This document shows, piece after piece, positions 6,614 through 43,417 of a stretch of 64,000 nt of DNA. Source of the DNA: Bacteriovoracaceae bacterium (GTDB taxonomy: Bacteria > Bdellovibrionota > Bacteriovoracia > Bacteriovoracales > Bacteriovoracaceae). Location of the stretch: positions 1 to 64,000 of the forward strand of contig JARXAH010000067.1 of the NCBI GenBank assembly GCA_029865945.1. Direction: 5' to 3'. How positions within the stretch are numbered: position 1 is the stretch's first letter; each line of letters opens with the position of its first letter. The position numbers and the translations under genes are program-made. The notes under the pieces were generated by a model. The model was given only the letters and a program-made list of their open reading frames with translations, made no database searches and was not told where the DNA came from.

Positions 6614-7576
6614 ATGAATCTAAATCTCAATTGGATGCATTGGATATTGTTTGCCCTCGTTTCCTCCTTTACCCTAAGTCATACCCTTTTTCCTATAACC
6701 ATGGCAGAGACATCCAAAGTTCAAACTACTACTACGACGAGCGCTCCATCGAATTGCGAGGAATGGTTATCTTTATTCCCAGGAACTTTTGACAAAGCGG
6801 AATTGAAGAAAGTTTGTGCCAATACTGCCCAGCTACCTAATTGTGAAAGTCAAGAAGGTCATCACCCCATCATTCATTTTGATCAAAATGGACTTCCCCA
6901 AGGTAAAAAAATTCTCGTCTTTTCTTTGTTTCATGGTGATGAGTATCCAGCAGGGTCCATGGCGCGAGATTGGATGTTAAGACTGAGTACCTTAAAAAAC
7001 GGAAGAAATAATTGGAGAATTATCCCTATCGTTAATCCTGATGGAGTACTTGCTAAAACAAGAGTGAACGCTCGTGGTGTTGACCTTAACCGAAATCTTC
7101 CGACAGAAAAATGGCAATCCGAAGCGGCCCACCGATGGGAGCAAATAGAGAAAAAAGATACAAGACGATTTCCTGGTGGCAATCAGGCCAGCGAGTTAGA
7201 AGTTAAATGTGTCATGAAACAAATTGAAGATTTTAAGCCAGATTTCATTGTGAGTATTCATACTCCTTACGGACTACTTGACTTTGATGGCCCTGAAAAA
7301 CAAAAAAATCCTCCGGTAAAAGATTTACCCTGGAAGCGTCTTGGAAATTATCCCGGAAGCTTAGGCAGATTTATGTGGGCCGAAAGAAGTATTCCCGTAC
7401 TCACGATTGAACTTAAAGGAAATAAATTTGATCAGACTCAAACCTATGTTTCTCACTTGCAAGATGTTATTGGAACTGTTGCGATTACCTCAGATAGTTT
7501 TGGTCCCAAAGAGAAGGCGATGGTGAAGCAAGCTGTTTTGGGTAGCGATTCAAATAGTAATAAAAAACTAGAATAA
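6614..7576 (+). CDS. Exported M14-family zinc carboxypeptidase, MpaA-like
   Basis: All M14 catalytic elements can be read: zinc ligands in FHGDEYPAGS (HxxE), the substrate-binding Asn-Arg in VNARGVDLNRNLP, a zinc His in SIHTPYG and the catalytic Glu in LTIELKGN. NPDG and NARGVDLNRN are typical of murein-peptide amidase MpaA relatives, so cleavage of a gamma-D-Glu-meso-Dap bond is a reasonable guess. I start at the ATG at 6614, after AAGGAG, which gives a signal peptide (MNLNLNWMHWILFALVSSF) and 320 residues. Unlike cytoplasmic MpaA this copy is therefore predicted to be exported, which would suit peptidoglycan turnover in the periplasm. Confidence 0.82.
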   Translation: MNLNLNWMHWILFALVSSFTLSHTLFPITMAETSKVQTTTTTSAPSNCEEWLSLFPGTFDKAELKKVCANTAQLPNCESQEGHHPIIHFDQNGLPQGKKILVFSLFHGDEYPAGSMARDWMLRLSTLKNGRNNWRIIPIVNPDGVLAKTRVNARGVDLNRNLPTEKWQSEAAHRWEQIEKKDTRRFPGGNQASELEVKCVMKQIEDFKPDFIVSIHTPYGLLDFDGPEKQKNPPVKDLPWKRLGNYPGSLGRFMWAERSIPVLTIELKGNKFDQTQTYVSHLQDVIGTVAITSDSFGPKEKAMVKQAVLGSDSNSNKKLE

Positions 7577-23024: not shown

Positions 23025-24182
23025 TTAAATTTTTTTGCGGTAGAATTTTTCGTCTAGGAAATGATTCCAGGGAAGTTGATGTTGGAATTGATAAAAAATA
23101 TAGACTAGTGGTGCAAGAGGGCCCAATAAGATGATAAAGAAAGAAGCATCATTAAATGTTTCGATAAGATTGCTCAAGGGAATTTTTTGAAAGTAGATTT
23201 CAAAAATGAATTTATTCAAAACAAAGGTTAAGATAACGCTTAACAACGTAATTTTAAGAAATTTAAAATAAATATTTTTAAGAGTCTGATTTTTATTTCC
23301 AAATTTTAGAAGAAGCTTCATCAAAAATTTTGGATTTCTGGAGCAAAAGGATTTAAACAAAAAATAAGTAAGGATTAGCGAAAAAATGCTGCCCACACGT
23401 AATAAGTATTCGAGTACCAAAAGTTTGGAGTTCTTTTCAGAGTACAATTCAGAATTATCATTCATATTTACTGTCTCATAAGATACGGTAGCGGGAATAG
23501 TTCCATCGTAGCTCTGAGTTAAGTTGATTGCATTTTTTAATTCTGAAAAAGACGCCAATGATTTATTTTTCGTCATGAAGCTTTTAATTTTGGTATTGGC
23601 TTCCTCTCCGATTAATGAGTAGTTGGATATAGGCATAAAAATGGACTCATTTTCACTAAATTCATCTTCATTGAATTTCCACATGCCTTTAACCGAAAAA
23701 ATTTTTCCGTTAATGGAGAAGGGATAAAAGTCATTTTCGGAATGGAATAGTTTATTGGCAAAACCGGGAGTAATAATAACACGAGATTGGCCTTCAAGAA
23801 TTTCTTGGGAAGTAAAATTTTCTCCAAAGACAAATCCACCTTTAATGTAATCAAAAAATTTATCATCGATGAAATTCACTAAAGTCGTATACTTTATTTT
23901 CTTACCATGAATGAAAAAAGACAATTCCACATCTGCTTGGATAAAAGCTGAGATATCGGGAAATAAATCATGGATCAATCGGTAATTTTTAAAGGTGATG
24001 CCGCTTGGGTTTAATGTGTTATTTTTAGTCTTAAGTCGGTAAACACTCACTTCAGGATTAACAACTAAAGTAAAATTAGATACCAGGTGGTTTTGAGCAA
24101 TTTGATTTATTTTTGAAGAGAAAAAAGCGGATGCAACCACGCATTGTATAACGAAATAAAGATAGTAAAAACTATTCTTCAT
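23025..24182 (-). CDS. FtsX/MacB-like ABC permease without its own ATPase
   Basis: The topology is that of a MacB/FtsX-type permease: one N-terminal helix (FYYLYFVIQCVVASAFF), about 200 residues of periplasmic domain and C-terminal helices (IFSLILTYFLFKSF; LLSVILTFVLNKFIFEIYF; FIILLGPLAPLVYIFYQF). The periplasmic part shows MacB-PCD features such as GGFVFGENFTSQEILEGQSR, VIITPGFANKLF and FPFSINGKIFSVKGM-like spacing. In MacB an ATPase domain precedes this on the same chain or beside it. Here the adjacent upstream gene is a protein with that fold's outline but no Walker motifs. The sequence is diverged, so the assignment rests on topology and a few local matches. Its start overlaps the previous gene by 11 bases. 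Confidence 0.6.
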   Translation of the reverse strand: MKNSFYYLYFVIQCVVASAFFSSKINQIAQNHLVSNFTLVVNPEVSVYRLKTKNNTLNPSGITFKNYRLIHDLFPDISAFIQADVELSFFIHGKKIKYTTLVNFIDDKFFDYIKGGFVFGENFTSQEILEGQSRVIITPGFANKLFHSENDFYPFSINGKIFSVKGMWKFNEDEFSENESIFMPISNYSLIGEEANTKIKSFMTKNKSLASFSELKNAINLTQSYDGTIPATVSYETVNMNDNSELYSEKNSKLLVLEYLLRVGSIFSLILTYFLFKSFCSRNPKFLMKLLLKFGNKNQTLKNIYFKFLKITLLSVILTFVLNKFIFEIYFQKIPLSNLIETFNDASFFIILLGPLAPLVYIFYQFQHQLPWNHFLDEKFYRKKI

Positions 24183-24720
24183 GAACTGCTTTCTCTTTTA
24201 TTGTTTTTTCTTTCTTTTTTGGTTTTGCCCTATCTTTGTCTTGAAAAAAACTATGTCTAATAAAAATTTTGCTAATTTTGCTCGATTCTGGAATGGAAAT
24301 AATATCTTCGTTTTCACTGTAAATAACAAAAGACGATCGATTCCATTGAGCTGTTTTAGAACAAGTTTCGAAGAATTTGCTCAAATCACTTTGACTATAT
24401 TTTAAGTTTCCTAAAAATAGCAAAATTAATTGTGACTTTTTTGATTGTTGGTCGCAATATCTTTGAAAATCATAAACGTGGTTATTTTGATGATGAGAAG
24501 AAGGTATCCAAACGAGGGGGCGGATGATTCTTTTTTCTTGGTAATACTCAATTTTATCATAATTAATATTTTTCCATGGAAGAGCTAATTGAAAAGCATC
24601 AGTAATTAATAATTCCTGCAAAACTAGAGAGCAGCGACAAAAATAAATTCTTGCCCCCATGATCATTGTATTATTTTCTTGATGTTCAGATTTGAGCGCA
24701 GAAATTTTTAAACTAAACAT
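24172..24720 (-). CDS. Possible degenerate ABC-ATPase-like protein lacking Walker motifs
   Basis: I do not recognise a family by motif. The beginning, FSLKISALKSEHQENNTMIM, followed by GARIYFCRCSLVLQELL, follows the start of a LolD/MacB ATPase (beta strand, turn, IMG, helix), but the GxxGxGKS/T loop is absent. Later, QLILLFLGNLKYSQSDLSKF sits where Walker B and the D-loop would be, without Asp-Glu. SSFVIYSENEDIISIP sits where the switch-His strand is expected, without the His. The last 25 residues are very Lys/Glu-rich. It lies between an HlyD-like adaptor and an FtsX-like permease, exactly where MacB's ATPase belongs. A pseudo-ATPase is the inference; an unrelated protein remains possible. 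Confidence 0.4.
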   Translation of the reverse strand: MFSLKISALKSEHQENNTMIMGARIYFCRCSLVLQELLITDAFQLALPWKNINYDKIEYYQEKRIIRPLVWIPSSHHQNNHVYDFQRYCDQQSKKSQLILLFLGNLKYSQSDLSKFFETCSKTAQWNRSSFVIYSENEDIISIPESSKISKIFIRHSFFQDKDRAKPKKKEKTIKEKAVHEE

Positions 24721-24735
24721 AGTTATCTTTTGCTA

Positions 24736-26001
24736 TTAGTTTTTTTGACTATAGTGGACTATGGCCATGACATTTTTAAGTTCCTGGTTATTGACCCCAA
24801 TCCAATTTTTTGTGGTGGATGCAATTTCCACCTTAACTCTCACAATTTTTTTTTCAGTCGTGAGAATATAAAATATTCCCGTGGGAATTTCTTTAATTCT
24901 TGCGTCGTTCGCCAATTCTCGAGAAATAGAGCTTTCTTTTGTTTGCACATCTTTTTTATTAGATTCTGTATCTGAAATGAGAGACGGCGTTTTTTTCTTT
25001 GTTAGATCAAGGGTCTTACTAATTTGTTTTTCATTGAAATTAAGTTCAAATGCATTTTTAGGAATCCAAAATAAATTGTCTTGTTTCTTTTTGTAAATTT
25101 CAGCTTCTAATCTTATTTCAGCGGGAATCTCCATCCCAGATGGAATTTCTAAATCGATGATCGCTGCATAGTAGCGTGATTTTAGTTCGACCGTGGCCTT
25201 TTGATTAATGCTTCTCACTTTTCCCTTAAATTTTTGTCCGGTAAGATTGGATATTTCGACTAAGGCCTGGTTACCTTGCTCGATTTGATTGACTAAATAG
25301 TCAAAGAGCTCAACTTCTGCCACATATTTTTTCCCATTGAGGGGGGCGACCGAAAGAATCGGGAGGTCTTTAAATCCTAGAACCACATTTCCTGGCTTAT
25401 GAAAAACCGCTGTCACGATGCCATCTTCTTGAGCAAAAATTTTATACTCTCGTGTCTGGGAATTTAACTTATCAATTTCTTTTTGCAAGTTGAGCGTTGT
25501 TTGAATCGCATCAATAATTATCAACTTATTCTTTAAGTATTCATCATAGGAAATCATTTTATGTTTCAGATCTTTATTTAAACTTGCCAACCTTGACTCC
25601 AACAGAGGAAGGTCATTAAGTTTGTTTTTTAGCTTTTCATATTGATTGATAATGTCTTCTGTTTCCGGGGCGTTTTGCAATTTTGCTAAAAGATCTCCCT
25701 GTTTAACTTTGTCTCCAGGACGAAAATAGATTTGTTCAATAACGCCTCCATTGCCGGCAAAGAAATAATCGATCTCATTTTCTACAAGAATTTTACCAGT
25801 TAAGTTGATAGGAAAATTTTGCACATTTTCACTGATTACCTGTGTAATATAATCAAAATTATTCGTTGAATTTCCCTTTTTAATCCATGTCTGCAAAGTG
25901 ATACCAATGAAAATAATGAGACCAATGGCGAAAATAAATTTCCCGCTTTGATTGGAATTATGAACTAAAAATTTAATGACATTTTTATTTTTTGTTATCA
26001 T
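24736..26001 (-). CDS. HlyD/MacA-family periplasmic adaptor
   Basis: The protein has an N-terminal membrane anchor (FIFAIGLIIFIGITLQTWI) and a split biotinyl-lipoyl domain (GVIEQIYFRPGDKVKQGDLL; later FAQEDGIVTAVFHKPGNVV). Between them is a coiled-coil hairpin of about 80 residues (KLKNKLNDLPLLESRLASL and onward), then beta-barrel-like C-terminal parts. This is the layout of membrane-fusion adaptors that link an inner-membrane transporter to an outer-membrane channel. I start at the ATG at 26001, which overlaps the upstream stop as TAATG; a TTG nine bases upstream is less likely. At 421 residues its length is normal for MacA/HlyD relatives. Confidence 0.85.
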   Translation of the reverse strand: MITKNKNVIKFLVHNSNQSGKFIFAIGLIIFIGITLQTWIKKGNSTNNFDYITQVISENVQNFPINLTGKILVENEIDYFFAGNGGVIEQIYFRPGDKVKQGDLLAKLQNAPETEDIINQYEKLKNKLNDLPLLESRLASLNKDLKHKMISYDEYLKNKLIIIDAIQTTLNLQKEIDKLNSQTREYKIFAQEDGIVTAVFHKPGNVVLGFKDLPILSVAPLNGKKYVAEVELFDYLVNQIEQGNQALVEISNLTGQKFKGKVRSINQKATVELKSRYYAAIIDLEIPSGMEIPAEIRLEAEIYKKKQDNLFWIPKNAFELNFNEKQISKTLDLTKKKTPSLISDTESNKKDVQTKESSISRELANDARIKEIPTGIFYILTTEKKIVRVKVEIASTTKNWIGVNNQELKNVMAIVHYSQKN

Positions 26002-26363
26002 TAAAACCAATCTTGTTTAAGTCCAGCTTTAAGCCAATCCTGAGTGGAAATCTCAAATTCAATCCGAGGATTTTCGCAGAAATTAATTTCATTCTCGGAC
26101 TTACAAGTTTCTAGTTTATTGGGAACAAATACCATCAGATGACTTTTGTCAGACTTAACTAGGCAAAATTCGCGTTCATTTTTACAAATAAGCTTTTGCT
26201 TTTTTGCCAACTTCACTAACGCTACAATCGATCGACTATTGGACAAGAAGTGTACTACATAAGGAGGATAGAGCGAGACCTGTTCTTTTAATGTGAGCTT
26301 GAGCGGAATACCCATGACAATGGAAAATAAGAAGGCCAAACATAAAACGATAGTCACGTTCAT
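26001..26363 (-). CDS. Small exported protein of unknown function
   Basis: This 120-residue protein starts with a hydrophobic signal or anchor (MNVTIVLCLAFLFSIVMGI). The body contains four cysteines in two close pairs (LICKNEREFCLV and ETCKSENEINFCEN), a spacing that suggests two disulfides in the periplasm. No family is recognised. It is the first gene of the minus-strand unit and is coupled to the adaptor gene by a TAATG stop-start overlap, so it probably serves the same machine, as a cargo, accessory or inhibitor. Confidence 0.6.
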   Translation of the reverse strand: MNVTIVLCLAFLFSIVMGIPLKLTLKEQVSLYPPYVVHFLSNSRSIVALVKLAKKQKLICKNEREFCLVKSDKSHLMVFVPNKLETCKSENEINFCENPRIEFEISTQDWLKAGLKQDWF

Positions 26364-26480
26364 GCATTACTTTCGGCAGAGATAGTAAAATAATCAAGGA
26401 AATCTCCCAAAAAAAAATGCATGGTAGTTGAGGAAAATAATGCCTCCTTTCCTAGATTTTATGGTGTGTTTTAATTTCTT

Positions 26481-27740
26481 ATGATTAGTTTTTTTCAGTA
26501 TTTTATCCATTGTATTATTCTTAACCTGATATTTTCTTTCTTTTTTTTAAGTGATGCATTTATCTCTAAAGTTTGGGCCGATGTTTCGCAGAAGTGGAAT
26601 AAGGTCAGTCAGCTAAAAAAAATGACAGAAAGTTGTCCTAGCTTAGAAAAATTTTTTGAGGGATCCAATCAAATCAAGGATGCCTATCAAAGAGAAATTA
26701 AGAATTCTTTTATTGAAGATAGTGTGATGCCAAAACTTACCAATTCATTAACTGATAATGATTTTGGTTCTGGAAGCAAAAGATTTCGAATCGGTCTTAA
26801 AACAAGGTCTCTAAACCCCTACGTAATTAAAAATAATTGGCGCTTAACCAAGTATCGACTATTAAATGAAAAAAATACTCAGAAACAAGATCAAATTGAT
26901 TCACTGAGGAAATATTATGAATTTTTTTTGCAATACATCATATTGAGTAATTATTCACACTACCTTGCCCCATTAAAGGAGTACGTTGATAGCATTTCTC
27001 CCCTAAATTCCTTTGATAGCGATTCGAAAAATCAAGACTTAGATTTTTCAATGAATGATATTACGAAAGATTTAGATCTTTTCGCTATTAAAGAAACTTT
27101 GAGTGAGAAAATGGAGTTATTTAGTGATCTAAATAATCAATTTAAAGACTGCTCGCACTTATCAAAAAATATTGAAGAGTATATGTTATTTTTAAATGAT
27201 GAAGATTTGCTCCAGACAGACAAGTTGGAGAAAAATGAAGCGGAGTTCTATGACGCTTGCACTTATCAGAAACTATTTAATTACGAGAGGCTTGAAAGTA
27301 AAAAATGGTATGAGGCAGTGGACTTAACTTTTGCCTACAATAAAATTTATCCACTTAGTTCCGCGCAGCAGAACACTAAAGAGTGGGTCGTTGGGTTCGA
27401 ATTAGGTATTCCTTTTGGAGTAGGATCTATAAGTGATTCACTTAAAATGGGAGTCATGCGCAATGGATGTATCGTCGATAAAATGAAACGACAAAATGAA
27501 TTTAGTGAAATTAAGAATTTTTATGGCCTATATAAAGATAAGGCAAAGACCTTACTGAAAGAGCAAACTCGACTAAAAGGAATTATAAAATATTTAGCAA
27601 AAGAAAAAAAATTTTCAAGTCAGCTGCAGTATCTTGCTAATTTAGTTAAGGCAATTACACAAATGGATACTGTTTCTAAATATATTCTAAAAGGACAATC
27701 CGCAGCGCTAGGTATCTACTTGGAAACAGCGGATGAGTAA
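26481..27740 (+). CDS. Exported coiled-coil protein, TolC-like outer-membrane channel candidate
   Basis: A signal-like N terminus (ILNLIFSFFFLSDAFISKVW) is followed by 390 mostly helical, Lys/Glu/Ser-rich residues with two long coiled-coil stretches. Near residue 275 there is a barrel-like segment (WYEAVDLTFAYNKIYPLSS, then WVVGFELGIPFGVGS) between the helical halves. Alternating long helices with short amphipathic strands ending in PFG is the TolC-family pattern. The position, divergent from an adaptor/permease operon, fits the outer-membrane member of a tripartite exporter. No diagnostic motif is present, so this is inference from architecture and context. Its stop overlaps the next gene's start by 8 bases. 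Confidence 0.5.
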   Translation: MISFFQYFIHCIILNLIFSFFFLSDAFISKVWADVSQKWNKVSQLKKMTESCPSLEKFFEGSNQIKDAYQREIKNSFIEDSVMPKLTNSLTDNDFGSGSKRFRIGLKTRSLNPYVIKNNWRLTKYRLLNEKNTQKQDQIDSLRKYYEFFLQYIILSNYSHYLAPLKEYVDSISPLNSFDSDSKNQDLDFSMNDITKDLDLFAIKETLSEKMELFSDLNNQFKDCSHLSKNIEEYMLFLNDEDLLQTDKLEKNEAEFYDACTYQKLFNYERLESKKWYEAVDLTFAYNKIYPLSSAQQNTKEWVVGFELGIPFGVGSISDSLKMGVMRNGCIVDKMKRQNEFSEIKNFYGLYKDKAKTLLKEQTRLKGIIKYLAKEKKFSSQLQYLANLVKAITQMDTVSKYILKGQSAALGIYLETADE

Positions 27741-28533
27741 ATTTAATATTTTGGAAAATTTTACTTCCCGTCTGATGAAAATTAAGAATTTGTCCTTTAG
27801 TAATATTTATCTTTTATTATTGATCGTTTGTATCTTAGGTGTTTCCTCCGTGTTTTCACCAGTTATGCTTCGCGTGTTAATTGATGGTTTCTTATTGGAG
27901 CGAGACGAAGAGTTAATCTTTAAGGGTGCTGTTATCATTTTTTTTATTGAAGTTGTTAACTTGACCTTAAGTCACATTTTTAAATTAATGCTTGATAAAA
28001 CTTACAATCTTGATATTGGTGTGACTGGGGCCGATGGAACTTCGGATAGCTTTGATAAAATTAAAGCGAATTATTTTCCTTATATTAATTTTTGGTATTT
28101 TGTGAAAGATTCCGTCACTTTGTTTTTCTTACTCTTAGTAACGTGTATTATTTCTTTGCAAATTGGTATTACAACTTTTCTTTTTTTTCTTTTTTCTTTA
28201 TTTGTTGCCGACATCATTGAGAAACAAATTAGGTTCCACAAACATATTTACTACAAGAGCGATCTACCTGCTGTGAAAATGAAGTGTGAGTGGAAAATTC
28301 TACGATTAGAGTCCATGCATTTTGATATTCAAGGTGTCTTTAGAGTTCTACTTCTAATGACGATTCTATTTTATGGTTCCTATCAAATTATTAACAATCA
28401 ATGGGACATGGGTGTTATCTGGTCCAATTTATTTATCGTGTTTCGCGCTCAAGGCCCAATTAGAGGAATTATTAAAGGCATAATCACTAGCAAGAAACAA
28501 CGTAGTGAAGAAGAATCTCTTGGTCAGGAATGA
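27733..28533 (+). CDS. ABC exporter transmembrane domain without ATPase, internally shortened
   Basis: The helices match the type-1 exporter fold of HlyB/PrtD/MsbA. The opening block VSSVFSPVMLRVLIDGFLLE equals the conserved end of TM1. FFLLLVTCIISLQIGITTFL is TM3-TM4. VIWSNLFIVFRAQGPIRGI is the TM6 exit. The stretch that normally carries the LFxHLLxLPxxFF coupling helix is replaced by about 30 unrelated polar residues (LDIGVTGADGTSDSFDKIKA). The chain ends at residue 266, where a nucleotide-binding domain of about 240 residues should begin. It is therefore a reduced exporter domain or a derivative with a new role. It is cotranscribed with the TolC-like gene upstream. Confidence 0.6.
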   Translation: MSKFNILENFTSRLMKIKNLSFSNIYLLLLIVCILGVSSVFSPVMLRVLIDGFLLERDEELIFKGAVIIFFIEVVNLTLSHIFKLMLDKTYNLDIGVTGADGTSDSFDKIKANYFPYINFWYFVKDSVTLFFLLLVTCIISLQIGITTFLFFLFSLFVADIIEKQIRFHKHIYYKSDLPAVKMKCEWKILRLESMHFDIQGVFRVLLLMTILFYGSYQIINNQWDMGVIWSNLFIVFRAQGPIRGIIKGIITSKKQRSEEESLGQE

Positions 28534-28543
28534 GTGAGTGAAT

Positions 28544-28580
28544 GAAAAAAAAATAAAGGCAGCTTAGTGAAAAGCTGCCT
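28544..28580 (-). terminator. Rho-independent terminator reading leftward
   Basis: On the minus strand AGGCAGCTT-ttcact-AAGCTGCCT (perfect 9-bp stem) is followed by TTTATTTTTTTTTC, a textbook intrinsic terminator. On the plus strand the same hairpin has no T-run after it. The nearest leftward gene ends at 29057, about 480 bases away, so the terminator may serve an RNA made from the intervening non-coding region. Confidence 0.75.
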
Positions 28581-28603
28581 GAGATAGAAATCCTGGTTGC
28601 TTT

Positions 28604-28700
28604 AATATGGTTTTTTCCACATCTAATATGGTGACCATATCGAGTATGGCTTTCCATATCTACTATGGTTTACCATATTACTATGGTTCATGCCCCATAT
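28604..28700. repeat. Array of five TATGG...CCATA palindromes, period 18-21 bp
   Basis: Five successive dyads have TATGG left arms and CCATA or similar right arms, with 3-8 bases between: ATATGG-TGA-CCATAT is the most perfect (28626-28640). The others begin near 28605, 28644, 28663 and 28681. The right arm of the first is degraded to CCACAT. Centre spacing is close to two helical turns. The regularity suggests binding sites for a dimeric protein or a run of small RNA hairpins. Confidence 0.6.
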
Positions 28701-29056
28701 CCGCTCTCAGCATTACCTTGTTTAAGGGTCTCATCAGAGATAATGGTATAACGCAAGCGTCGTACCAAGCGAGCATTTACCAGGAAGGTAGAATGCTTAG
28801 TTCATACATTTATCATATCACGAAGATGATCAAAATCAGCTTTTTCACTATTGAAACGAAATAAGTCTAATGAATTTAATCTCTTGGAAGAAAAAAAAGC
28901 TAAGTTATATTTAAAATACTTTTGGGCCGTAACTTAAAAATTTGCAAATATTCGCCCACAATAATACCCAAAAAGTGACAAAAAGCGACGGAGATTAGCT
29001 TAGGATTTTTAGGAAGGTACTTATACTTATAAATTCGTAACACACTGAAGGGATTA

Positions 29057-30100
29057 TTAAACTTCCCTAATTAAATGTGTATAAGATTTAGGGTTCAAGA
29101 TTAAACTTAGTTCCTCATCGATATTATATTTGTCATCATCGTTTTTTTCTCGCGGCGATTTGCGAAGCAATTTTATTTTTCGCTGAGTTATTACTGACCT
29201 TGTTTCAATTATATTTTTGAAGTGTTCATGGTAGTGCTCTTTAATTTTAACCTTAATGCCTGATTCCGTTCCATTACTTTCAAATTGCATCCCTTCCGCG
29301 CTTTCACAGAGATCTTCTGGAAGAAGATATATGGCGATAGGTTTATCTGGAGTTCCAACATCATCACCAGTATTTAAATTGAGTTTCAATGTTCCTTCGT
29401 TCGCATAAAAGAGTTGATTTTTTACATATCCAACTAGCAAATTTCCAAAATCAACTGCCAATGCAACTTCAATCGTCGGTGGCCGATAAAGCATTTCTTC
29501 AGGTGTTCCATTAAAAATAATGTTTCCTCGCTGCATAAACAAAATTCGGTCGCTCCAACGGCAAGCAAATTCCAGATCATGAGTAGACCATAAAACAGAA
29601 CTTTCTTTTTCTCTTGTCCAGGATTTCAAATTTTCCATGATGGTAGCTTGGCCCAGTCGGTCCATGTGAGCGAAGGCCTCATCGAGCAACAATAGATTAG
29701 TATTTTCTAATTGCAGAAAATGCTCCATCTGTTGCCATTTATGAAAATTGCCAGTGGATAAATTTTGTAATTCGGTATCCCAAAATTGGGCAAGGTTCAT
29801 CCAGTTTGCAAACGATCTTTTTTCTTCTACATCAGCACTGGCTTCCATGTTGAAACGGCTTGCTACTTGAAAATGATAAGGTGGCTTCCATTTATTTCCT
29901 TTATAGATTTTTCCTTTTTGAGGAGAAATCTTTTCTGCAATCGTATTGAGTAAAGTCGTCTTACCTGAACCATTAACACCCATCAAGGCCACCACTTCGC
30001 CAGGGTACAATTCAAGATTAACCTGGTTTAGGCCGTGGCCTTTTCTTATTTGAAATAAATGAGAAATATTTTCGAGCTTGAGTAGAAAGTCGTCGGCCAT
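29057..30100 (-). CDS. Solo ABC transporter ATP-binding protein with C-terminal extension
   Basis: The nucleotide-binding domain (residues 1-230) has Walker A GVNGSGKTT, a signature reading LSTGN in place of LSGGQ, Walker B with catalytic Glu (NLLLLDEAFAHMD) and the switch His in WSTHD. It should therefore be an active ATPase with an altered signature. Residues 230-347 form an additional domain with IAIYLLPEDLCES and a long charged tail, resembling a TOBE-like regulatory domain. No membrane partner is adjacent in the same orientation; the nearest orphan membrane domains are at 27733-28533 and 23025-24182, on the far side of the non-coding block. A 58-residue gene precedes it by 48 bases. Confidence 0.82.
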   Translation of the reverse strand: MADDFLLKLENISHLFQIRKGHGLNQVNLELYPGEVVALMGVNGSGKTTLLNTIAEKISPQKGKIYKGNKWKPPYHFQVASRFNMEASADVEEKRSFANWMNLAQFWDTELQNLSTGNFHKWQQMEHFLQLENTNLLLLDEAFAHMDRLGQATIMENLKSWTREKESSVLWSTHDLEFACRWSDRILFMQRGNIIFNGTPEEMLYRPPTIEVALAVDFGNLLVGYVKNQLFYANEGTLKLNLNTGDDVGTPDKPIAIYLLPEDLCESAEGMQFESNGTESGIKVKIKEHYHEHFKNIIETRSVITQRKIKLLRKSPREKNDDDKYNIDEELSLILNPKSYTHLIREV

Positions 30101-35241: not shown

Positions 35242-35297
35242 ACAGTCTTTGTTGTATGTACGTTGTGTCGTCTAAAAAAGTTTTTGGTGTTTTTTTT

Positions 35298-37847
35298 ATG
35301 ACGAATTTTCAGATCCCTTTACGCTGGTTTGTAAATATATCAATCCTATTTTTTCTATTTTCTTGTGGTGAACAAAAAAAAGGATCAAGCAAAGAAAAAA
35401 GTTTCACCCCCGGGGAAATCAAAACGAATTGCACCATTAACGGAAAAAATCTTGAGAAATTTTTTGAACAAGAAGTCCCTGCTGATATTGATTGTCTTGG
35501 AAGAAGTCTCAAACTTTTCGTTCGTATCGTTCAGCCAAGTGCGCCAGAGTATGCCGGATATCTATCAAGAGAAATTTTAGAGCGGTACATTAAAGCAGAT
35601 CCAACTCTTGGAAGCTTAGTCCCCAATTTAAAATATTTTGGACTTTTTTTTGAAGTGAGCAATCTTATTTTTGGTGATAGTGAAAATAAAGACTACCTAA
35701 ATTCTATTCGGATTGGTGATCTTACCGAATTTTTTAAACTAATTAATGTTCATGCCATTCAAATGAATATTCTGCTTAAAAAGGGAAAGAAGCTACACCG
35801 CGAAGCTTTGAGTGAATCCCAGCGACTAGAATATTTCAATCTTTACACATTTAAGAGAAAAGAAATCATTGAGCATACTGAGGCGATCAGCAATGAACTG
35901 TTAAAGCTTTTTGCAAAAGGCAGCAAGCGCTACACCAACTCCGTAAACTTGGAAAGTATTCTAGATACTTTTGGCGGAAACGTCGCAAAGTATAAGCCGC
36001 TTCTATTTGTAAAAAGAATTTTTTCTAGTGGAGATGATAAAAGTGTCTCCCAGAAAGAGCTAAGTTATTTAATCAAGGTTTCGCCAGATTTAATTTCCTT
36101 GTTTTACGATATTTCTCATTTTGGAGAAATCGTATTTGCTTCTCAAAATGCTCAATATGGATTTTATAAACAGATAGTGCAAAACTTTAAGCGACTACTT
36201 TATTACAGTGATAGTGATCCACAGGACCAAAATATCGTCCTTTTTTATATGAATCAACTCAATGAGGGTTTGAGGGCCATCAAAATTATTCAAGAAGATT
36301 TGGATATTGATATAGAAAAAATTATTCCTTTAATTCCAGAACTAAAGCAAGTCTTAATGATGACTGATAAAGATAAACTTCCTGGTTACGAAGTAGAATC
36401 ATTTACGTCCAAGGATTTTAATACGTTCATTTCTTTTTTGATGAATGTACTTAATGAGGCCACAGATTTTGCAAAACTTTTTCAAGCTAATAAAAATATT
36501 ATTTTAAGCACAAAACAATTATCAAAAGAAGATTTAGTTCCAAGTTCAGAGGTTAGTTCTAGCGCTTATGATAATTTTGTTAAAATTGCCACCAAGTATC
36601 GTTTTTTTAAAGGTGAGTTACGATTACCTATTTTTGGTGATCGGTATTTAAGAAGCGAATCTGGAATCATTGAGTTGGGGATTTTTGAAAAAGCTTACGA
36701 TCATATCGCTAAACATTATGAAAGAGAGATTCCATGTTTTAGTAAAGATCTCATTCGCAAACGAGCTGAGGGAAGGCCGGACCAACCATTAAATAAATGT
36801 TATGGGCAAAAAAATGGTGTTGAGGATGAAGATTACAAGGGAACACTAACTCAAGGTCAATTAGAGTACGTGATCTATAAATTAAGAGATCAATTAATCG
36901 ACTTAAATTTGGTGCTTGGTGGTCGAGAATTTGTTGCTGCGGAAAACGCTACATTATTGACAAGTCTTTTTCAATTTCAATCGGACGCTGATAATTTAAT
37001 CAATGCTAAAGAAGCAGTGGAATTTGCCCTTCAAATTTTGGCCTCTTTAAACATTAAAGAAGATTTGCTTAGTGGAATGAAACTTTTTTGTAAACCCATG
37101 ATCGATACTACAACGAAAGAAGAAGTTTACGATAGGGATTGTAGTCGCAATGCATTTGTAAAAATATTAAACCTTCCTTTTACAAGATACATAAATGAAA
37201 AAAATAAAATAGTAACCGTTCCTTCGGAATCTTATTCTCCAAATTCTGGAGATTATATTTTGGAAGATGGCCTCACCTATGCCAAATATATTCCAAGGTT
37301 TGCGAAATTCATAAATCCGTCTAATCAAGATACTAAAATTAAATTCGTAGCATCAATGGAAAAGTTTACTCGCTCCTGCTTTGACGTAGATGAAAAAAAT
37401 AAAGTGAAAAGGGCCTATACCGATGCTGACTTGATTGGTATCTTTGCTGGACTATTTAATATTGAATCTACGCTCGTTCGTTTTGATACTAATAATGACA
37501 ATATACTTACAGGTAATGAAGTTGATGCTACTTATCAGCACTTTAAAAAAGCTTTAGATGTGATTGTTAGCGATTTATTGGGAAGCAAGTTGATAAGAAA
37601 AATATATCTTGAACCCATTTTTTATTTTTTGATTAAAGAATTAAAAGTGCCATCTCTCAAAGATTGGAAAGGGATCGTTTCTCTTATTGTTTACCCTCTC
37701 AAGATGAAAAAATTAAAACGGGAAGCAAAGGTTAACCAACTAACTATTGCTTCGATTCTCTCCCAGATTAAATCAAGCTCCAAAAATGGAATGACGGATA
37801 AAGAAAAAGCTAACTTCTGTAAGATTCCTACTTATTCCATTCCTTAG
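35298..37847 (+). CDS. Large lipoprotein with one EF-hand-like loop (paralogue 1)
   Basis: The ATG at 35298 gives a lipoprotein signal peptide ending in ILFFLFSCGEQ; an ATG 42 bases upstream would bury it. The mature chain, about 825 residues, is mostly helical with no known domain that I can name. Near residue 730 there is an EF-hand-type calcium loop, DTNNDNILTGNE. Cysteines are few and mostly shared with the next gene product, to which it aligns along its length: AGYLSRE...LE, FGDSENKDYL, LTQGQLEYVIYKL and AENATLLTSLFQFQSDAD all recur there. The two genes look like an old tandem duplication. It is probably anchored to the outer membrane or the periplasmic face. Confidence 0.7.
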   Translation: MTNFQIPLRWFVNISILFFLFSCGEQKKGSSKEKSFTPGEIKTNCTINGKNLEKFFEQEVPADIDCLGRSLKLFVRIVQPSAPEYAGYLSREILERYIKADPTLGSLVPNLKYFGLFFEVSNLIFGDSENKDYLNSIRIGDLTEFFKLINVHAIQMNILLKKGKKLHREALSESQRLEYFNLYTFKRKEIIEHTEAISNELLKLFAKGSKRYTNSVNLESILDTFGGNVAKYKPLLFVKRIFSSGDDKSVSQKELSYLIKVSPDLISLFYDISHFGEIVFASQNAQYGFYKQIVQNFKRLLYYSDSDPQDQNIVLFYMNQLNEGLRAIKIIQEDLDIDIEKIIPLIPELKQVLMMTDKDKLPGYEVESFTSKDFNTFISFLMNVLNEATDFAKLFQANKNIILSTKQLSKEDLVPSSEVSSSAYDNFVKIATKYRFFKGELRLPIFGDRYLRSESGIIELGIFEKAYDHIAKHYEREIPCFSKDLIRKRAEGRPDQPLNKCYGQKNGVEDEDYKGTLTQGQLEYVIYKLRDQLIDLNLVLGGREFVAAENATLLTSLFQFQSDADNLINAKEAVEFALQILASLNIKEDLLSGMKLFCKPMIDTTTKEEVYDRDCSRNAFVKILNLPFTRYINEKNKIVTVPSESYSPNSGDYILEDGLTYAKYIPRFAKFINPSNQDTKIKFVASMEKFTRSCFDVDEKNKVKRAYTDADLIGIFAGLFNIESTLVRFDTNNDNILTGNEVDATYQHFKKALDVIVSDLLGSKLIRKIYLEPIFYFLIKELKVPSLKDWKGIVSLIVYPLKMKKLKREAKVNQLTIASILSQIKSSSKNGMTDKEKANFCKIPTYSIP

Positions 37848-37956
37848 ACCTAGGGCCCTTACCTTCTCAACCTCGATTAATAAATCAGCTCATGTTGCGT
37901 TGCGCAATCACCTTTTTCTTTACTTTACTTAGAATTTACCCTACTAAATAAAATTT

Positions 37957-40386
37957 ATGATGAAGTTGAGTGCCATTTTATTCATTGTTTGCCACCTGCT
38001 TTTTTCTTGCGGAGAAAACACCGGAAAAGTGGCCGAACTTAAGCCTAAAGACATTGACGTCACATGTGAAATTGTAGGGAGTAATTTAGAAAATTTTTTT
38101 ACTCGTCAAGCGACCAGCGACATAGACTGTCTTGGACAAAAACTAAAACTATTCACAAAAATTGTAGAGCCAGATTCATCATCCCATGCGGGTTATTTAT
38201 CGCGACAGACATTAGAGAATTTCATAAAGCTTGACCCTACCTTAAAAAGTCTCATTCCCAATCTAAAATTTATATCCTTGCTTTTTGATGTGACCAATTT
38301 AATTTTTGGGGACTCTGATAAACCCAATTATTTAAAGATGGAACGAATTGATGAAATTTCAGGCTTTCTTCAATTACTAAATTTAAATGTTATTGAAATG
38401 AATAAATTACTAGAACAAGGAGACAAGGTTTACCGAGATGCGATTACGGAAAGCGAGAGAATTCAGATTTATCAAAACTATATGAACCAACGGAATCAAT
38501 TAGTCGCCTATGCTGATTCTACTAAAGCGGCACTTCTGAAATTATTTGCTAAGGGTAAAATGAAGTATACCTTTCGTTTTAGTCTAGAGAAACTTCTTGA
38601 TACCTTAGAAGATGATGATGGCATTGATGATTTTTCTAAGTACAAAAATTTGCTGTTTGTTAAAAGAATTTTTTTAGGGGGAGATAATTCAGTCATTACT
38701 CAACCAGAATTATTCCGATTGGCGCAAAAAAGTTCAGAGTTTTTAGAGGCATACTATGATATTATCCATTTTAATGAGATTGTTTTTGCTGATGAATTAA
38801 CCCAATATCAATATTATCGAGAACTCGTCAAAAAAGTTGAAAATCTTTTTTATTTCAAAGATGATCCCAACGTTGTCCTTTTTACGATTGATAACTTGGA
38901 AGATGGTCTCAGTTCCGTCCAAACTAAAGATGGATTTGAATTTTCAAAATACTATGGACTCATCCCAGAGGTGAAGAGTGTATTTATGGATTCCATTTCC
39001 AACGAATTCAAGATGAAGGATTTTTTAGCTTTATTTTCTCATGCTAGAAATATTCTTTTAACCGCCGTCGATTTTTCTGAACTTTATCGTGCTAATGCTG
39101 ACCTGCTATCAAGTCCCCAAAAAATTTCCGAAGAATTTATTAGGCCGGCAAAAGGAACTGAAAAGTCCTTCGAGAGATTTAAAAAAGTGATTACTCATTA
39201 TCGATATTTTAAGGGCCATGAAAAAATGCCTTATTTTGGAGATACCTTTAAGCGCAGTGAGGCCGGCGTCATAGAAATAGGTATTTATGAAGTTATTTTT
39301 GAAATCCTTGCTGAACATTATGAAAAATTCATCCCGTGTACGAGTAGTGAATTAAGTCATTTTTCAAGACCAGTAAAAGAAGGCATCTTTCCTGACGGCA
39401 AAGCTAACATGACTTGCAATAAGGAAGACTATGCTAAAACTCTCACTCAAGGCCAATTAGAATACATTGTTTTAAAATTAAAAGATCCTTTGTTTGAGTT
39501 AGATCTTGTGACTAAAGATAGAGAATTTGGAACGGCAGAAAATGGAATATTAATGACCGATCTCTTCCAGTATCAATCCGATAGTAGTGTTACCATGAAT
39601 GCAGCTGAAGGTGTCGAGTTTGGGTTGCAATTAATCGCTGCGGTAGGAATGCGTGATGAGATCATGAAGGCCATTGATTTGCTTTGCAGGCCAATTTTTA
39701 ATCCAAGAACTAAGCTCAATGCTTATGAAGTCGGTTGTGTGAGGGAGAATTTTTTTAAAGTTTTGGGCCTAAATTACACTAGATTTGTAAGTGCTGAAAC
39801 GAAAGAAATTGAAGTCGCTCCCAACTATGAACTCAAGCCAGGTGATAAATTTGTTTCACAATTTACGTTTTATGATTTTCTTCCTAGGTTTAATAAATAC
39901 CAAGAAAAACTTAGCAAGGTTGGACGGGAAAAATTTCTCTATGAGATGGAGTTGTTTACCCGAACTTGTGCTGAGGTTGATCCTACCATTCCTTACGAGC
40001 GTCCTGATTTAGTAACTATTTTTGGTGCCATTTTCAATATTGAAGCGGCACTGGCGCGGTTTGATACAGACAATAGTAACGAATTGAGAGGGGAAGAAGT
40101 TCATCATGCTTACATGCACTACCGAGCTGGATTAAAAGCGATTGTTAAAATACCAGATGCCTTTGTAGAACCTGCCTTTTATTTATTAATAAAAGAAATG
40201 CATAAACCTTCTGCTTCACAAGTTTTGTGGAATAAGTATATTAAGGATTATAAAAAAAATGCCTTTATCAATCAAACAACAGTCGCATCCGTCTTGGCCG
40301 AAATAAAAATTAGTTCTGAAAATAAAATGACGCCCGCCGAGGAAAAAAAATATTGCAAAAATATCCTTCTTAATCGGCCCAAATAG
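37957..40386 (+). CDS. Large lipoprotein with one EF-hand-like loop (paralogue 2)
   Basis: The signal peptide ends in the lipobox region VCHLLFSCGE. The 809-residue chain is collinear with the upstream paralogue (HAGYLSRQTLENFIKLDPTL, FGDSDKPNYL, LTQGQLEYIVLKL, AENGILMTDLFQYQSDSS). The EF-hand-like loop near residue 703 reads DTDNSNELRGEE, so Asp/Asn ligand positions are kept in both copies although the surrounding sequence has diverged. Both chains end with a similar motif (QTTVASVLAEIK and SSENKMT here). The function is unknown. Calcium binding or structural use of the loop is inferred. prfB starts 16 bases downstream. Confidence 0.7.
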   Translation: MMKLSAILFIVCHLLFSCGENTGKVAELKPKDIDVTCEIVGSNLENFFTRQATSDIDCLGQKLKLFTKIVEPDSSSHAGYLSRQTLENFIKLDPTLKSLIPNLKFISLLFDVTNLIFGDSDKPNYLKMERIDEISGFLQLLNLNVIEMNKLLEQGDKVYRDAITESERIQIYQNYMNQRNQLVAYADSTKAALLKLFAKGKMKYTFRFSLEKLLDTLEDDDGIDDFSKYKNLLFVKRIFLGGDNSVITQPELFRLAQKSSEFLEAYYDIIHFNEIVFADELTQYQYYRELVKKVENLFYFKDDPNVVLFTIDNLEDGLSSVQTKDGFEFSKYYGLIPEVKSVFMDSISNEFKMKDFLALFSHARNILLTAVDFSELYRANADLLSSPQKISEEFIRPAKGTEKSFERFKKVITHYRYFKGHEKMPYFGDTFKRSEAGVIEIGIYEVIFEILAEHYEKFIPCTSSELSHFSRPVKEGIFPDGKANMTCNKEDYAKTLTQGQLEYIVLKLKDPLFELDLVTKDREFGTAENGILMTDLFQYQSDSSVTMNAAEGVEFGLQLIAAVGMRDEIMKAIDLLCRPIFNPRTKLNAYEVGCVRENFFKVLGLNYTRFVSAETKEIEVAPNYELKPGDKFVSQFTFYDFLPRFNKYQEKLSKVGREKFLYEMELFTRTCAEVDPTIPYERPDLVTIFGAIFNIEAALARFDTDNSNELRGEEVHHAYMHYRAGLKAIVKIPDAFVEPAFYLLIKEMHKPSASQVLWNKYIKDYKKNAFINQTTVASVLAEIKISSENKMTPAEEKKYCKNILLNRPK

Positions 40387-40401: not shown

Positions 40402-41563
40402 ATGTCATCACAAAATATCAATAAAGTATTAGAAACATTTTCTCAGTATAAAATCTGGCGTGAAACCTCTGACAACATTCGGAGGTCGCTTTGACATTGC
40501 AAAAAAATCCCACCGACTTTTAGAAATTAAAGATCTCGAATGTCTCGATGGCTTTTGGAGTGATGCGGACCACGCAACCAAAATTCAAAAAGAAAAAAAT
40601 TTACTCCAAGGTATTATTAAAAATTATCAGGAGATGGTTGATGCTCTTGATGAGTATGAAATCCTTCTCGACTATTCAAAGCAAGGCGATGAGAGCAGCG
40701 CCTTACAAGCTATTGAGCTCTTCAATCAATGCGAAGAGCTGGTTCAAAAACAAGAGCAAACAGTTTTGTTGGCCAATGAATTTGATGCGAACAATGCCAT
40801 AGTATCCGTCAATGCGGGAGCTGGCGGAACAGAGTCCTGCGATTGGGCCGCCATGCTAGTGCGAATGATTAAGCGGTGGGCAGAATCTAAAGGCCATCAG
40901 ATGAAAGTCTTTGATATTCAGCCTGGTGAAACGGCGGGAGTAAAGTCGGCCACGTTTTTAATTGAAGGTGCGTTTGCCTATGGAAATTTGCAGTCAGAAA
41001 GTGGTGTCCACCGACTGGTGAGAATTTCGCCCTTTGATTCTAATGCAAGAAGACACACTTCCTTTGCTTCGATTTTTGTTGGGCCAGAAGTTGATGACAC
41101 TATCGATATTCAAGTTTTAGACAAAGATTTGCGAATCGATGTTTACCGCTCTGGCGGATCAGGAGGACAATCGGTTAACACGACGGACTCCGCTGTTCGA
41201 TTTACTCACATACCAACTGGGATTGTCGTTACTTGCCAAAATGAAAGATCCCAGCTTCAAAATAAGTTGCAGGCCATGAAAATTTTGAAATCTCGTCTTT
41301 ACGAGCGTGCGATGGAAGAGAAGCGGGCCAAACAAAGTGAAATCGAGGCCAACAAGAAAGAAATTTCCTGGGGCGCACAAATTAGGTCTTATGTTTTGCA
41401 TCCCTACCAGATGGTCAAAGATCACCGAACACTTCATGAAAGCTCCCAGGCCCAAAGTATTTTAGATGGTGACTTGGATGAGTTCATGAAATCCTATCTG
41501 AAGTGGAAGGCCCTTGGGGGAATTTTACCAGACGATATTGATCATAACAGCAATCAGGATTAG
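40402..41563 (+). CDS. prfB: Peptide chain release factor 2, expressed by programmed +1 frameshift
   Basis: RF2 releases peptides at UGA and UAA. The gene is split in two frames: ATG at 40402 opens 30 codons ending in CTT TGA (40489-40494), and the rest, starting GAC ATT GCA, continues in the +1 frame to 41563. The anticodon tripeptide SPF (RISPFDSNARRHTSF) identifies RF2 rather than RF1. The catalytic GGQ lies in RSGGSGGQSVN. A downstream ATG at 40460 is in the second frame but would miss the true N terminus. It heads or joins the envelope operon that follows (5-base gap). Confidence 0.93.
40481..40495 (+). promoter_or_regulatory. RF2 programmed frameshift signal
   Basis: GGAGG, three bases (TCG), then CTT TGA C has the same spacing as the E. 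coli site (AGGGGG, TAT, CTTTGAC). The internal Shine-Dalgarno stimulates slipping from CTT to TTT when RF2 is scarce, so the factor controls its own synthesis. Confidence 0.93.
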
Positions 41564-41567
41564 TAAT

Positions 41568-42761
41568 TTGAAAATACCCTTTAGAGATTTACTTGCCATT
41601 TTTTTAGAGGGACGAAGTACTTGGTATTTTTTAGGATTTGCTATTTTTGCTCTCAGTGCCTCAATGGCGATTGTCATTTGTAATATTGGGTTGATGGATG
41701 GGTACGACGAGGCACTTAAAAAAGTCTTACGTACCGGCCAAGGGGATATCACCATTTTTTCTCAAAATGGTTTTTTTAGTTTGAAAGATGTAGATTTTAG
41801 AAGCGAAAAACTAGCTATCAAAATTGAAGCGAAAATAGGAATCATCCAGTCAGAATCTTTTGTTGTGAAAGAAGAGGAGGCGCGTGGTGTAATGGTTAAG
41901 GCCTTGAAGCTGCAAGATCTTCCTTACTTCCAACTTACTCCCTGGAAAGCTCGTAGCATTGTTATCGGTCAAGATTTGGCCAGTGAATTACAAATAAAAT
42001 TGCATGATAAAATCGCATTGGCCTTTGCAGAGGGAAATGTCCAAAGCAAGGGTTTGCCTAATGTGACTACTTATGAAGTCGGGGGGTTTTATAAGACCGG
42101 CCTCTATCGGTATGATTCCCGAGTTATTTACATCTATGAAAACGATTATCGTGTCGATCAAAATGTCAATTCGGATAGAATTAATAAAGTTCATTTTGTT
42201 CTTAAGAGTCAATACAGACAAATGGGCGATATTATCGATGTCGTTCAAGAAATGAAACGGGAATTATCTGGCCATTTTGTCGCAAGACCATTTTGGAGTG
42301 ACTATTTGAGCTTGTTTGAAGCTGTACAAGTTGAAAAAAAATCTATTTCCCTTGTCTTGCAACTCATTATCGTGATGGCGCTGTTTAATATTGTCGCTTT
42401 TGTTTATTACTTAACGGATAAAAAAGCTTCTGAATTTTTTATTTTAAGATCCCTTGGACTAAGTGGGAAAGGATTATTTAAATTTTTAACTCAAGTCATC
42501 ATTTTATTTTGGTTTTTTTCTTGTTTGGGGTCTTTGCTTTTTACCTGGTTTTTTGATTCCGTCATTTTAAAATGGACATGGCTGCAAATTCCCGGAAAGA
42601 TTTATGAGCTAGGTCAATTGGGCCTCTCCTTATCTGCAGGAGTTGTTATCCAAGTTTTTCTCGTAAGTTTTGTATGGGTATTTATCGTATCATTTTGGTC
42701 GTTACTTCGCCTCAAAAGAAAAAGCTTAGTGGCAGGCCTGAGAGAGGAGTTCGGAACGTGA
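41568..42761 (+). CDS. LolC/LolE-type lipoprotein-releasing permease
   Basis: The layout is one N-terminal helix (YFLGFAIFALSASMAIVIC), about 220 residues of periplasmic domain and three C-terminal helices (LIIVMALFNIVAFVYYLTD; FLTQVIILFWFFSCLGSLLF; VVIQVFLVSFVWVFIVSF), the FtsX-like LolC/E topology. DKKASEFFILRSLGLSGKGL matches the conserved coupling helix. The only start after prfB is a TTG at 41568 with AGGA upstream, giving 397 residues. Only one permease gene is present, so a homodimeric LolF-type exporter is likely. The ATPase gene overlaps its stop. Confidence 0.78.
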   Translation: MKIPFRDLLAIFLEGRSTWYFLGFAIFALSASMAIVICNIGLMDGYDEALKKVLRTGQGDITIFSQNGFFSLKDVDFRSEKLAIKIEAKIGIIQSESFVVKEEEARGVMVKALKLQDLPYFQLTPWKARSIVIGQDLASELQIKLHDKIALAFAEGNVQSKGLPNVTTYEVGGFYKTGLYRYDSRVIYIYENDYRVDQNVNSDRINKVHFVLKSQYRQMGDIIDVVQEMKRELSGHFVARPFWSDYLSLFEAVQVEKKSISLVLQLIIVMALFNIVAFVYYLTDKKASEFFILRSLGLSGKGLFKFLTQVIILFWFFSCLGSLLFTWFFDSVILKWTWLQIPGKIYELGQLGLSLSAGVVIQVFLVSFVWVFIVSFWSLLRLKRKSLVAGLREEFGT

Positions 42762-43417
42762 ATATGATTGTCTTAGAAAATATTAAAAAAGTTTATGGAA
42801 AACATACGGTGATTGAAAATTGTCAGCTTCAACTGAAATCTAGAGAACATTGTGCCCTGGTGGGGAGTTCTGGTTCAGGTAAATCAACGCTGCTCTATTT
42901 GATCGGTGGACTTGAAAAAGCTGATGCAGGGAGAGTGATTGTTAATCAGCAAGATTATTCGCAGCTAAATGATGATCAATTGGCGCAAACACGCAATGAA
43001 AATATTGGATTCATCTTCCAATTTCATTTTTTGCTCGCAACCCTCACGTGTTGGAAAAATATTTTACTTCCCATTAAAATTGGCAATCGCTCGACCAAAG
43101 ATTATGAAAGTAAAATTCGAGATTATGCCAAGCACCTTTCGGTTGAGCACTGTCTGGATTCTTATCCCTATCAACTTTCAGGTGGTGAGCAACAAAGAAT
43201 TAACCTCATTCGCGCAGTCATCATGCGTCCTAAAATTTTACTTTGCGATGAGCCTACCGGAAATTTGGACTCGACCAATTCAAAGAAAGTCATCGATTTA
43301 CTGAAAAATCTCGCCGACGAGTCGGGGGCCACATTGTTAGTGGTTACACACGATGAAAAAATAGCTGCAAGTTTCCCTCGAAAATTAATGATTGAAGATG
43401 GTCGTTTAATTGGCTAA
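42758..43417 (+). CDS. lolD: LolD-type ABC ATPase
   Basis: LolD powers extraction of outer-membrane lipoproteins from the inner membrane. Walker A GSSGSGKSTLLYLIGGLEK, signature QLSGGEQQRINLIRAV and Walker B ILLCDEPTGNLD are all standard for the LolD/MacB group, with the switch His in VVTHDEK. I choose the GTG at 42758: GAGGAG lies 8 bases before it and it overlaps the permease stop (GTGA). An ATG six bases later is less well placed. Length is about 219 residues. Confidence 0.88.
   Translation: MNMIVLENIKKVYGKHTVIENCQLQLKSREHCALVGSSGSGKSTLLYLIGGLEKADAGRVIVNQQDYSQLNDDQLAQTRNENIGFIFQFHFLLATLTCWKNILLPIKIGNRSTKDYESKIRDYAKHLSVEHCLDSYPYQLSGGEQQRINLIRAVIMRPKILLCDEPTGNLDSTNSKKVIDLLKNLADESGATLLVVTHDEKIAASFPRKLMIEDGRLIG

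Follow-up and report, generated by a model that had tools for sequence, protein, structure and literature searches.

A MacAB- and type I exporter-like gene set lacking ATP-binding motifs in Bacteriovoracaceae and in another family of the phylum

MacB and the type I exporters are defined by the ATP-driven work that they carry out, and a locus that brings together parts of both with no recognisable ATP-binding motif in either raises the question of whether it encodes a working envelope system or the remains of one. Such a locus is found in the contig JARXAH010000067.1 (G000:C100) of a Bacteriovoracaceae bacterium, whose genome comprises 3.08 Mb in 103 contigs and is 96% complete. Within the stretch of 64,000 nucleotides that was analysed (the window), positions 23025-28533 hold six ORFs, all of them intact and closely packed, in two divergent groups:

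23025..24182, minus strand: MacB/FtsX-type permease (385 aa), with an N-terminal TM, a MacB-like periplasmic core and three C-terminal TMs
24172..24720, minus strand: pseudo-NBD (182 aa) at the position of the MacB ATPase, assigned by synteny and found free of Walker A/B, signature and H-loop in a motif scan
24736..26010, minus strand: HlyD/MacA-type periplasmic adaptor (424 aa), with one N-terminal TM and HlyD_D23 and RND_mfp matches
26001..26363, minus strand: small exported protein (120 aa), with an N-terminal hydrophobic segment and a Cys pair
26364..26480, no strand: divergent intergenic region (117 bp), presumed from sequence only to be the site of both promoters
26481..27740, plus strand: TolC-like (outer-membrane-factor-like) protein (419 aa), the weakest assignment of the six
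27733..28533, plus strand: type IV ABC exporter-like membrane domain without NBD (266 aa), with shortened cytoplasmic loops

The genes for the permease and the pseudo-NBD overlap by 11 bp, those for the small protein and the adaptor by 10 bp, and those for the TolC-like protein and the membrane domain by 8 bp. An ORF check confirmed the positions, the intact frames and the short overlaps that had been described in a sequence-only reading of the window. No sigma-70-like site was reported in the intergenic region (26364..26480). Past the membrane-domain gene, the intergenic positions 28600-28690 contain ATATGG/CCATAT runs, in which the repeat finder recognised no family. Elsewhere in the window, two paralogous neighbours encoding lipoprotein-like proteins of 863 and 809 aa are located at 35256-40386, and at 41514-43417, beside BamA and lipid A genes, an ordinary type VII ABC pair is encoded, namely a LolCE-like permease and a LolD-like ATPase whose Walker motifs are intact.

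When the permease was searched for in 369 genomes of the phylum, counterparts were obtained in four genomes besides that of the window (G131, G132, G335 and G071). The same five had been set apart in a first pass with a single permease sequence, and in the search with the five-member profile the members, which built the profile, scored at E<1e-128, while all other matches remained at E>=4.6e-9. Most or nearly all of the non-member matches that were inspected are MacB permeases that have an intact NBD, either fused to them or encoded next to them. The set is carried by four of the 369 genomes (those of the window, G131, G132 and G335), and in G071 the permease appears alone, at the start of a contig, the small protein and the membrane domain not being found in that genome. 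Thus, the locus is not the orphan that it had been taken for, and the search for its gene order in related genomes returned the same genes in the same order in G131, G132 and G335.

G131 (JAHDBN010000001) and G132 (JAHDHG010000070) are Bacteriovoracaceae MAGs of one genus (g32), and in both of them the six genes form a single operon, which runs from the TolC-like gene through a membrane domain with a degenerate C-terminus, the small protein, the adaptor and the pseudo-NBD to the permease. The arrangement in two divergent operons holds for the window and does not extend to these relatives. In G335, which belongs to another family, the same order is distributed over two short contigs, one with the TolC-like protein and the membrane domain (C259) and the other with the genes from the small protein to the permease (C244), which we infer to join. 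The operon of G131 and G132 is situated downstream of fusA; in G131 it is followed directly by tuf and rpsJ, and the contig of G132 terminates past the permease. Because fusA and tuf are adjacent in G002, G131 seems to have gained the operon. An empty-site comparison was attempted at tuf of G031, a genome of the same genus in which no system was found, and was abandoned as the contig ends inside tuf. Scans of other genome contigs returned G131 and G132 alone, and a plasmid search with the permease of G335 gave nothing. Between fusA and the TolC-like gene, G132 has a repeat-rich spacer (L021:1981-6501) that holds 92-93-bp tandem units and an exact 300-bp duplication and no sizeable ORF; related, degenerate repeat units are present in the corresponding spacer of G131.

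The assignments of the individual proteins differ in strength. A MacB-type periplasmic core and a four-TM layout are present in the permease, as judged from MacB_PCD matches and the TM pattern: the window copy is narrowly short of the Pfam cut-off for MacB_PCD (7.1e-6), whereas the relatives in L020 and L022 lie above it (2e-6 and 1.4e-10). The best matches of the permease profile in the PDB are MacB/YknZ, at weak values (E 0.014-0.52). The adaptor matches HlyD_D23 (1.5e-10), HlyD_3 (8.6e-8) and RND_mfp (6.5e-16) in Pfam and NCBIfam, and it is homologous to the adaptors of the relatives (z 16-45). The adaptors of G131 and G132 carry an exact RLS motif, through which adaptors bind TolC (PMC3391258); that of G335 carries it in part, and the window copy lacks it. 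For the small protein and the pseudo-NBD, no meaningful family match was obtained in Pfam or NCBIfam; the two Cys of the former are conserved in the alignment of all four carriers, and the clear members of its profile are confined to these genomes. Matches to the small protein in G074, G067 and G056 were judged to be due to chance, the two that were examined being placed in pilus/type II-secretion-like clusters. The TolC-like protein of the window resembles that of G131 weakly (z 3-4), and the sole family match, that of the G335 relative to OEP, is very weak (E 0.33); the gene occupies the same operon position in G131, G132 and G335. The adaptor and the small protein of the window are closer to those of G335, from the other family, than to those of G131, from its own, which may reflect lateral transfer.

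With regard to the membrane domain, the 266-aa protein of the window has no Pfam match when searched alone, but it is homologous to a relative of 547 aa (z 10-13), and its relatives match the models of the type I secretion exporters LssB (3.9e-6) and PrtD (1.6e-5). The family profile, compared with the membrane domains of type IV ABC exporters, reached a score of 53.6 against a local shuffle maximum of 29.7. The genome of the window supplied six of the seven intact ABC exporters in the comparison set. In the global-mode control one outlier shuffle exceeded the observed score, so that we rely on the local result. Nearly all of the top 50 Foldseek matches of the 547-aa relative have the ABC exporter fold, SbmA included, the model used being of low confidence (pLDDT 48). 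In G131, G132 and G335 the type I module retains a degenerate C-terminal domain, which in the window is gone; the suggestion that an exporter membrane domain had been cut off before its NBD is thus correct for the window and does not apply to the relatives. In addition, between hydrophobic segments 2 and 3 and again between 4 and 5, the window protein is approximately 30-40 residues shorter than its relatives, and in the alignment these deletions cover the coupling-helix regions of exporters. A frameshifted NBD past the stop codon of the window gene was considered and rejected, the room being too small (523 bp) and 28401-29200 containing no convincing remnant. Isolated charged residues are conserved in or near the hydrophobic segments (E73, D126, R204 and R238 in the window), a hint of possible proton coupling.

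The lack of a working ATPase in both modules, suspected from the window, was borne out in four genomes by a motif scan, in which the patterns for Walker A, the signature, Walker B and the H-loop were found in none of the four pseudo-NBDs and in none of the four membrane-domain proteins. When the scan was applied to 45 true NBDs, 37 of them showed the signature, 40 showed Walker B and 35 showed the H-loop; the presence of Walker A in all 45 is a matter of construction, since the set was gathered through a Walker A search. All four carriers have a pseudo-NBD where the ATPase of the MacB side would be expected. The ancestry of these proteins is more difficult to establish. The window pseudo-NBD has no significant similarity to its counterparts (z <= 1.9), and comparisons with NBD profiles by hhalign gave no signal for single pseudo-NBDs, for the G131/G132 pair or for four-sequence alignments. 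A profile of the three relatives aligned to true NBDs over 166 colinear columns with a score reached by none of 199 column shuffles, a test that ignores the fact that this profile and the wider NBD set were picked as a combination after several others; the hhalign probability of the same alignment is just 2.4%. The degenerate C-terminus of the relatives' type I module aligned to NBDs over 45 columns only, and six of 200 shuffles were equally good. An AlphaFold2 model of a 214-aa pseudo-NBD was discarded on account of its pLDDT of 35. What speaks for a descent of the pseudo-NBDs and of the degenerate C-terminus from NBDs is thus the place of the genes, the register of the motifs and a single profile test, with no strong score, and the identity proposed for the 182-aa protein of the window stands on weaker ground, namely its gene position and the alignment of the relatives' profile to NBDs.

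It might be argued that a locus of this kind is an exporter decaying towards loss, as its distribution is patchy (4/369 genomes), losses are greater in the window copy than in its relatives (the C-terminal domain, the loops and the RLS motif) and a frameshift near position 6890, either an assembly error or real, splits the TolC-like gene of G132 (L021:6502-7849). We regard decay as very improbable, given that all six frames are intact in the window, that the same dead NBD is common to lineages of two families, and that dN between G131 and G132 is low for the six genes. Between these two genomes, identity amounts to 91% for the membrane part, 85% for the adaptor, 82% for the TolC-like protein, 76% for both the pseudo-NBD and the permease and 72.5% for the small protein, compared with 77.5% for EF-G over the part compared, so that conservation of the proteins is roughly on a par with that of EF-G or higher, the membrane part and the adaptor being more conserved than EF-G. 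The dN per gene ranges from 0.107 to 0.209 (0.066 for the membrane part alone; 0.169 for fusA), and as dS is near or at saturation the ratios are rough, dN being low throughout. For the genus of G131 and G132, this comparison of coding sequences shows purifying selection and speaks against decay; for the lineage of the window, the case against decay is that of the intact frames only. The earlier argument against simple decay is hence upheld by the occurrence of the set in four genomes, the intact frames of the window and purifying selection in one genus.

Taken as a whole, the set would encode a trans-envelope complex that is conserved, has two catalytically dead ATPase modules and goes back to a composite exporter in which a MacAB-type pump and a type I exporter had a common adaptor and outer-membrane factor, a reading to which we give about an even chance. 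In such a complex, the adaptor would connect the proteins of the inner membrane to the TolC-like duct, the pseudo-NBDs may have been kept as structural or regulatory plates beneath the membrane domains, and the machine could move or gate something without ATP hydrolysis of its own. Two observations fit less well: in the relatives the type I module still has its degenerate domain, which SLiPTs lack, and the RLS motif is missing from the window adaptor. The set probably works either independently of ATP or with external power.

External power could come from an ATPase encoded elsewhere and acting in trans; the pseudo-NBDs would then function as adaptors for a shared NBD. Shared NBDs are known in some ABC systems, and there are candidates in the genome of the window, where the ABC_tran profile has 49 matches, 44 of them over the cut-off. 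We consider this explanation unlikely, however, taking into account that no ATPase is encoded in the operon of G131 and G132 or on the contigs of G335 and that the window membrane domain is devoid of the loops that would contact an NBD. The solo ABC protein beside the locus (29057-30100), previously put forward as a possible driver, is an unlikely motor because it is absent from the relatives, with no match at E<=1e-30 in 19 other genomes, including all other carriers.

It is also conceivable that nothing is transported, and that the complex is a passive trans-envelope scaffold or sensor in which the MacB-like periplasmic domain and the small Cys protein relay the state of the envelope. The work of MacB-type proteins consists in the transmission of movement, without passage of substrate through the inner membrane (PMC5985334), which would be in keeping with such a role, as would the loss of catalysis on both sides with conservation of the periplasmic parts and the fact that no substrate was recognised among the nearby genes. 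Nevertheless, the retention of the adaptor and the TolC-like protein, together with the exact RLS motif in G131 and G132, suggests a duct, and this role seems rather doubtful to us.

For a complex that moves or gates something, the energy source considered most likely is an ion gradient used through the type IV membrane domain, for which SbmA/BacA offer a precedent: these peptide transporters (SLiPT) lost both NBDs and coupling helices and use the proton gradient (PMC13316013). The locus may encode a trans-envelope export machine with two ABC-derived membrane modules, neither of them used as an ATPase, in which an ion gradient acts via an SLiPT-like domain that is coupled to a MacB-like periplasmic pump and a TolC-like duct, a possibility that we advance tentatively. 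The likeness to SbmA/BacA (a type IV exporter-like domain that has no NBD and whose coupling-helix region is lost or shortened) concerns the window copy only. A glutamate ladder and additional TM0 helices belong to SLiPTs, among which SbmA works as an importer (PMC13316013); the relatives of the window copy retain the degenerate C-terminal domain, and the set includes an adaptor and a putative TolC-like protein.

Other known systems resemble the set in part. With MacAB-TolC (type VII ABC) it shares the adaptor, the permease with a periplasmic core, the putative TolC-like partner and a gene in the NBD position adjoining the permease gene, but its NBD equivalent has no ATP-binding motifs and it adds a type IV ABC-derived membrane protein and the small Cys-pair protein. 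As in type I secretion (HlyBD-TolC, LssB, PrtD), there are an HlyD-type adaptor, a putative TolC-like protein and, in the relatives, a membrane domain that matches LssB and PrtD; in contrast, there is no functional NBD and no recognised substrate, and a MacB-type partner is present. Since an ATPase of the defining kind was found in neither module, the system was not filed as MacAB-TolC or as a type I exporter. The Aat composite secretion system likewise combines type I parts (a TolC-like protein and an adaptor) with a MacB/LolCE-type permease, but it has the ATPase AatC and the acyltransferase AatD (PMC7943197), neither of which was seen in these loci. In a literature search limited to open-licence papers, no description of such a gene set was found.

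A conserved system that keeps its envelope-spanning parts while both motors are inactive would demonstrate a use for these parts even in the absence of ATP. The carriers also form a natural series, in which a degenerate C-terminal domain is kept and then lost along with the coupling loops, and which would allow the study of ABC transporters turning into something else, as has been proposed for SbmA. If the use of an ion gradient proves true, this would be a tripartite system of a kind undescribed in the open-licence papers searched.
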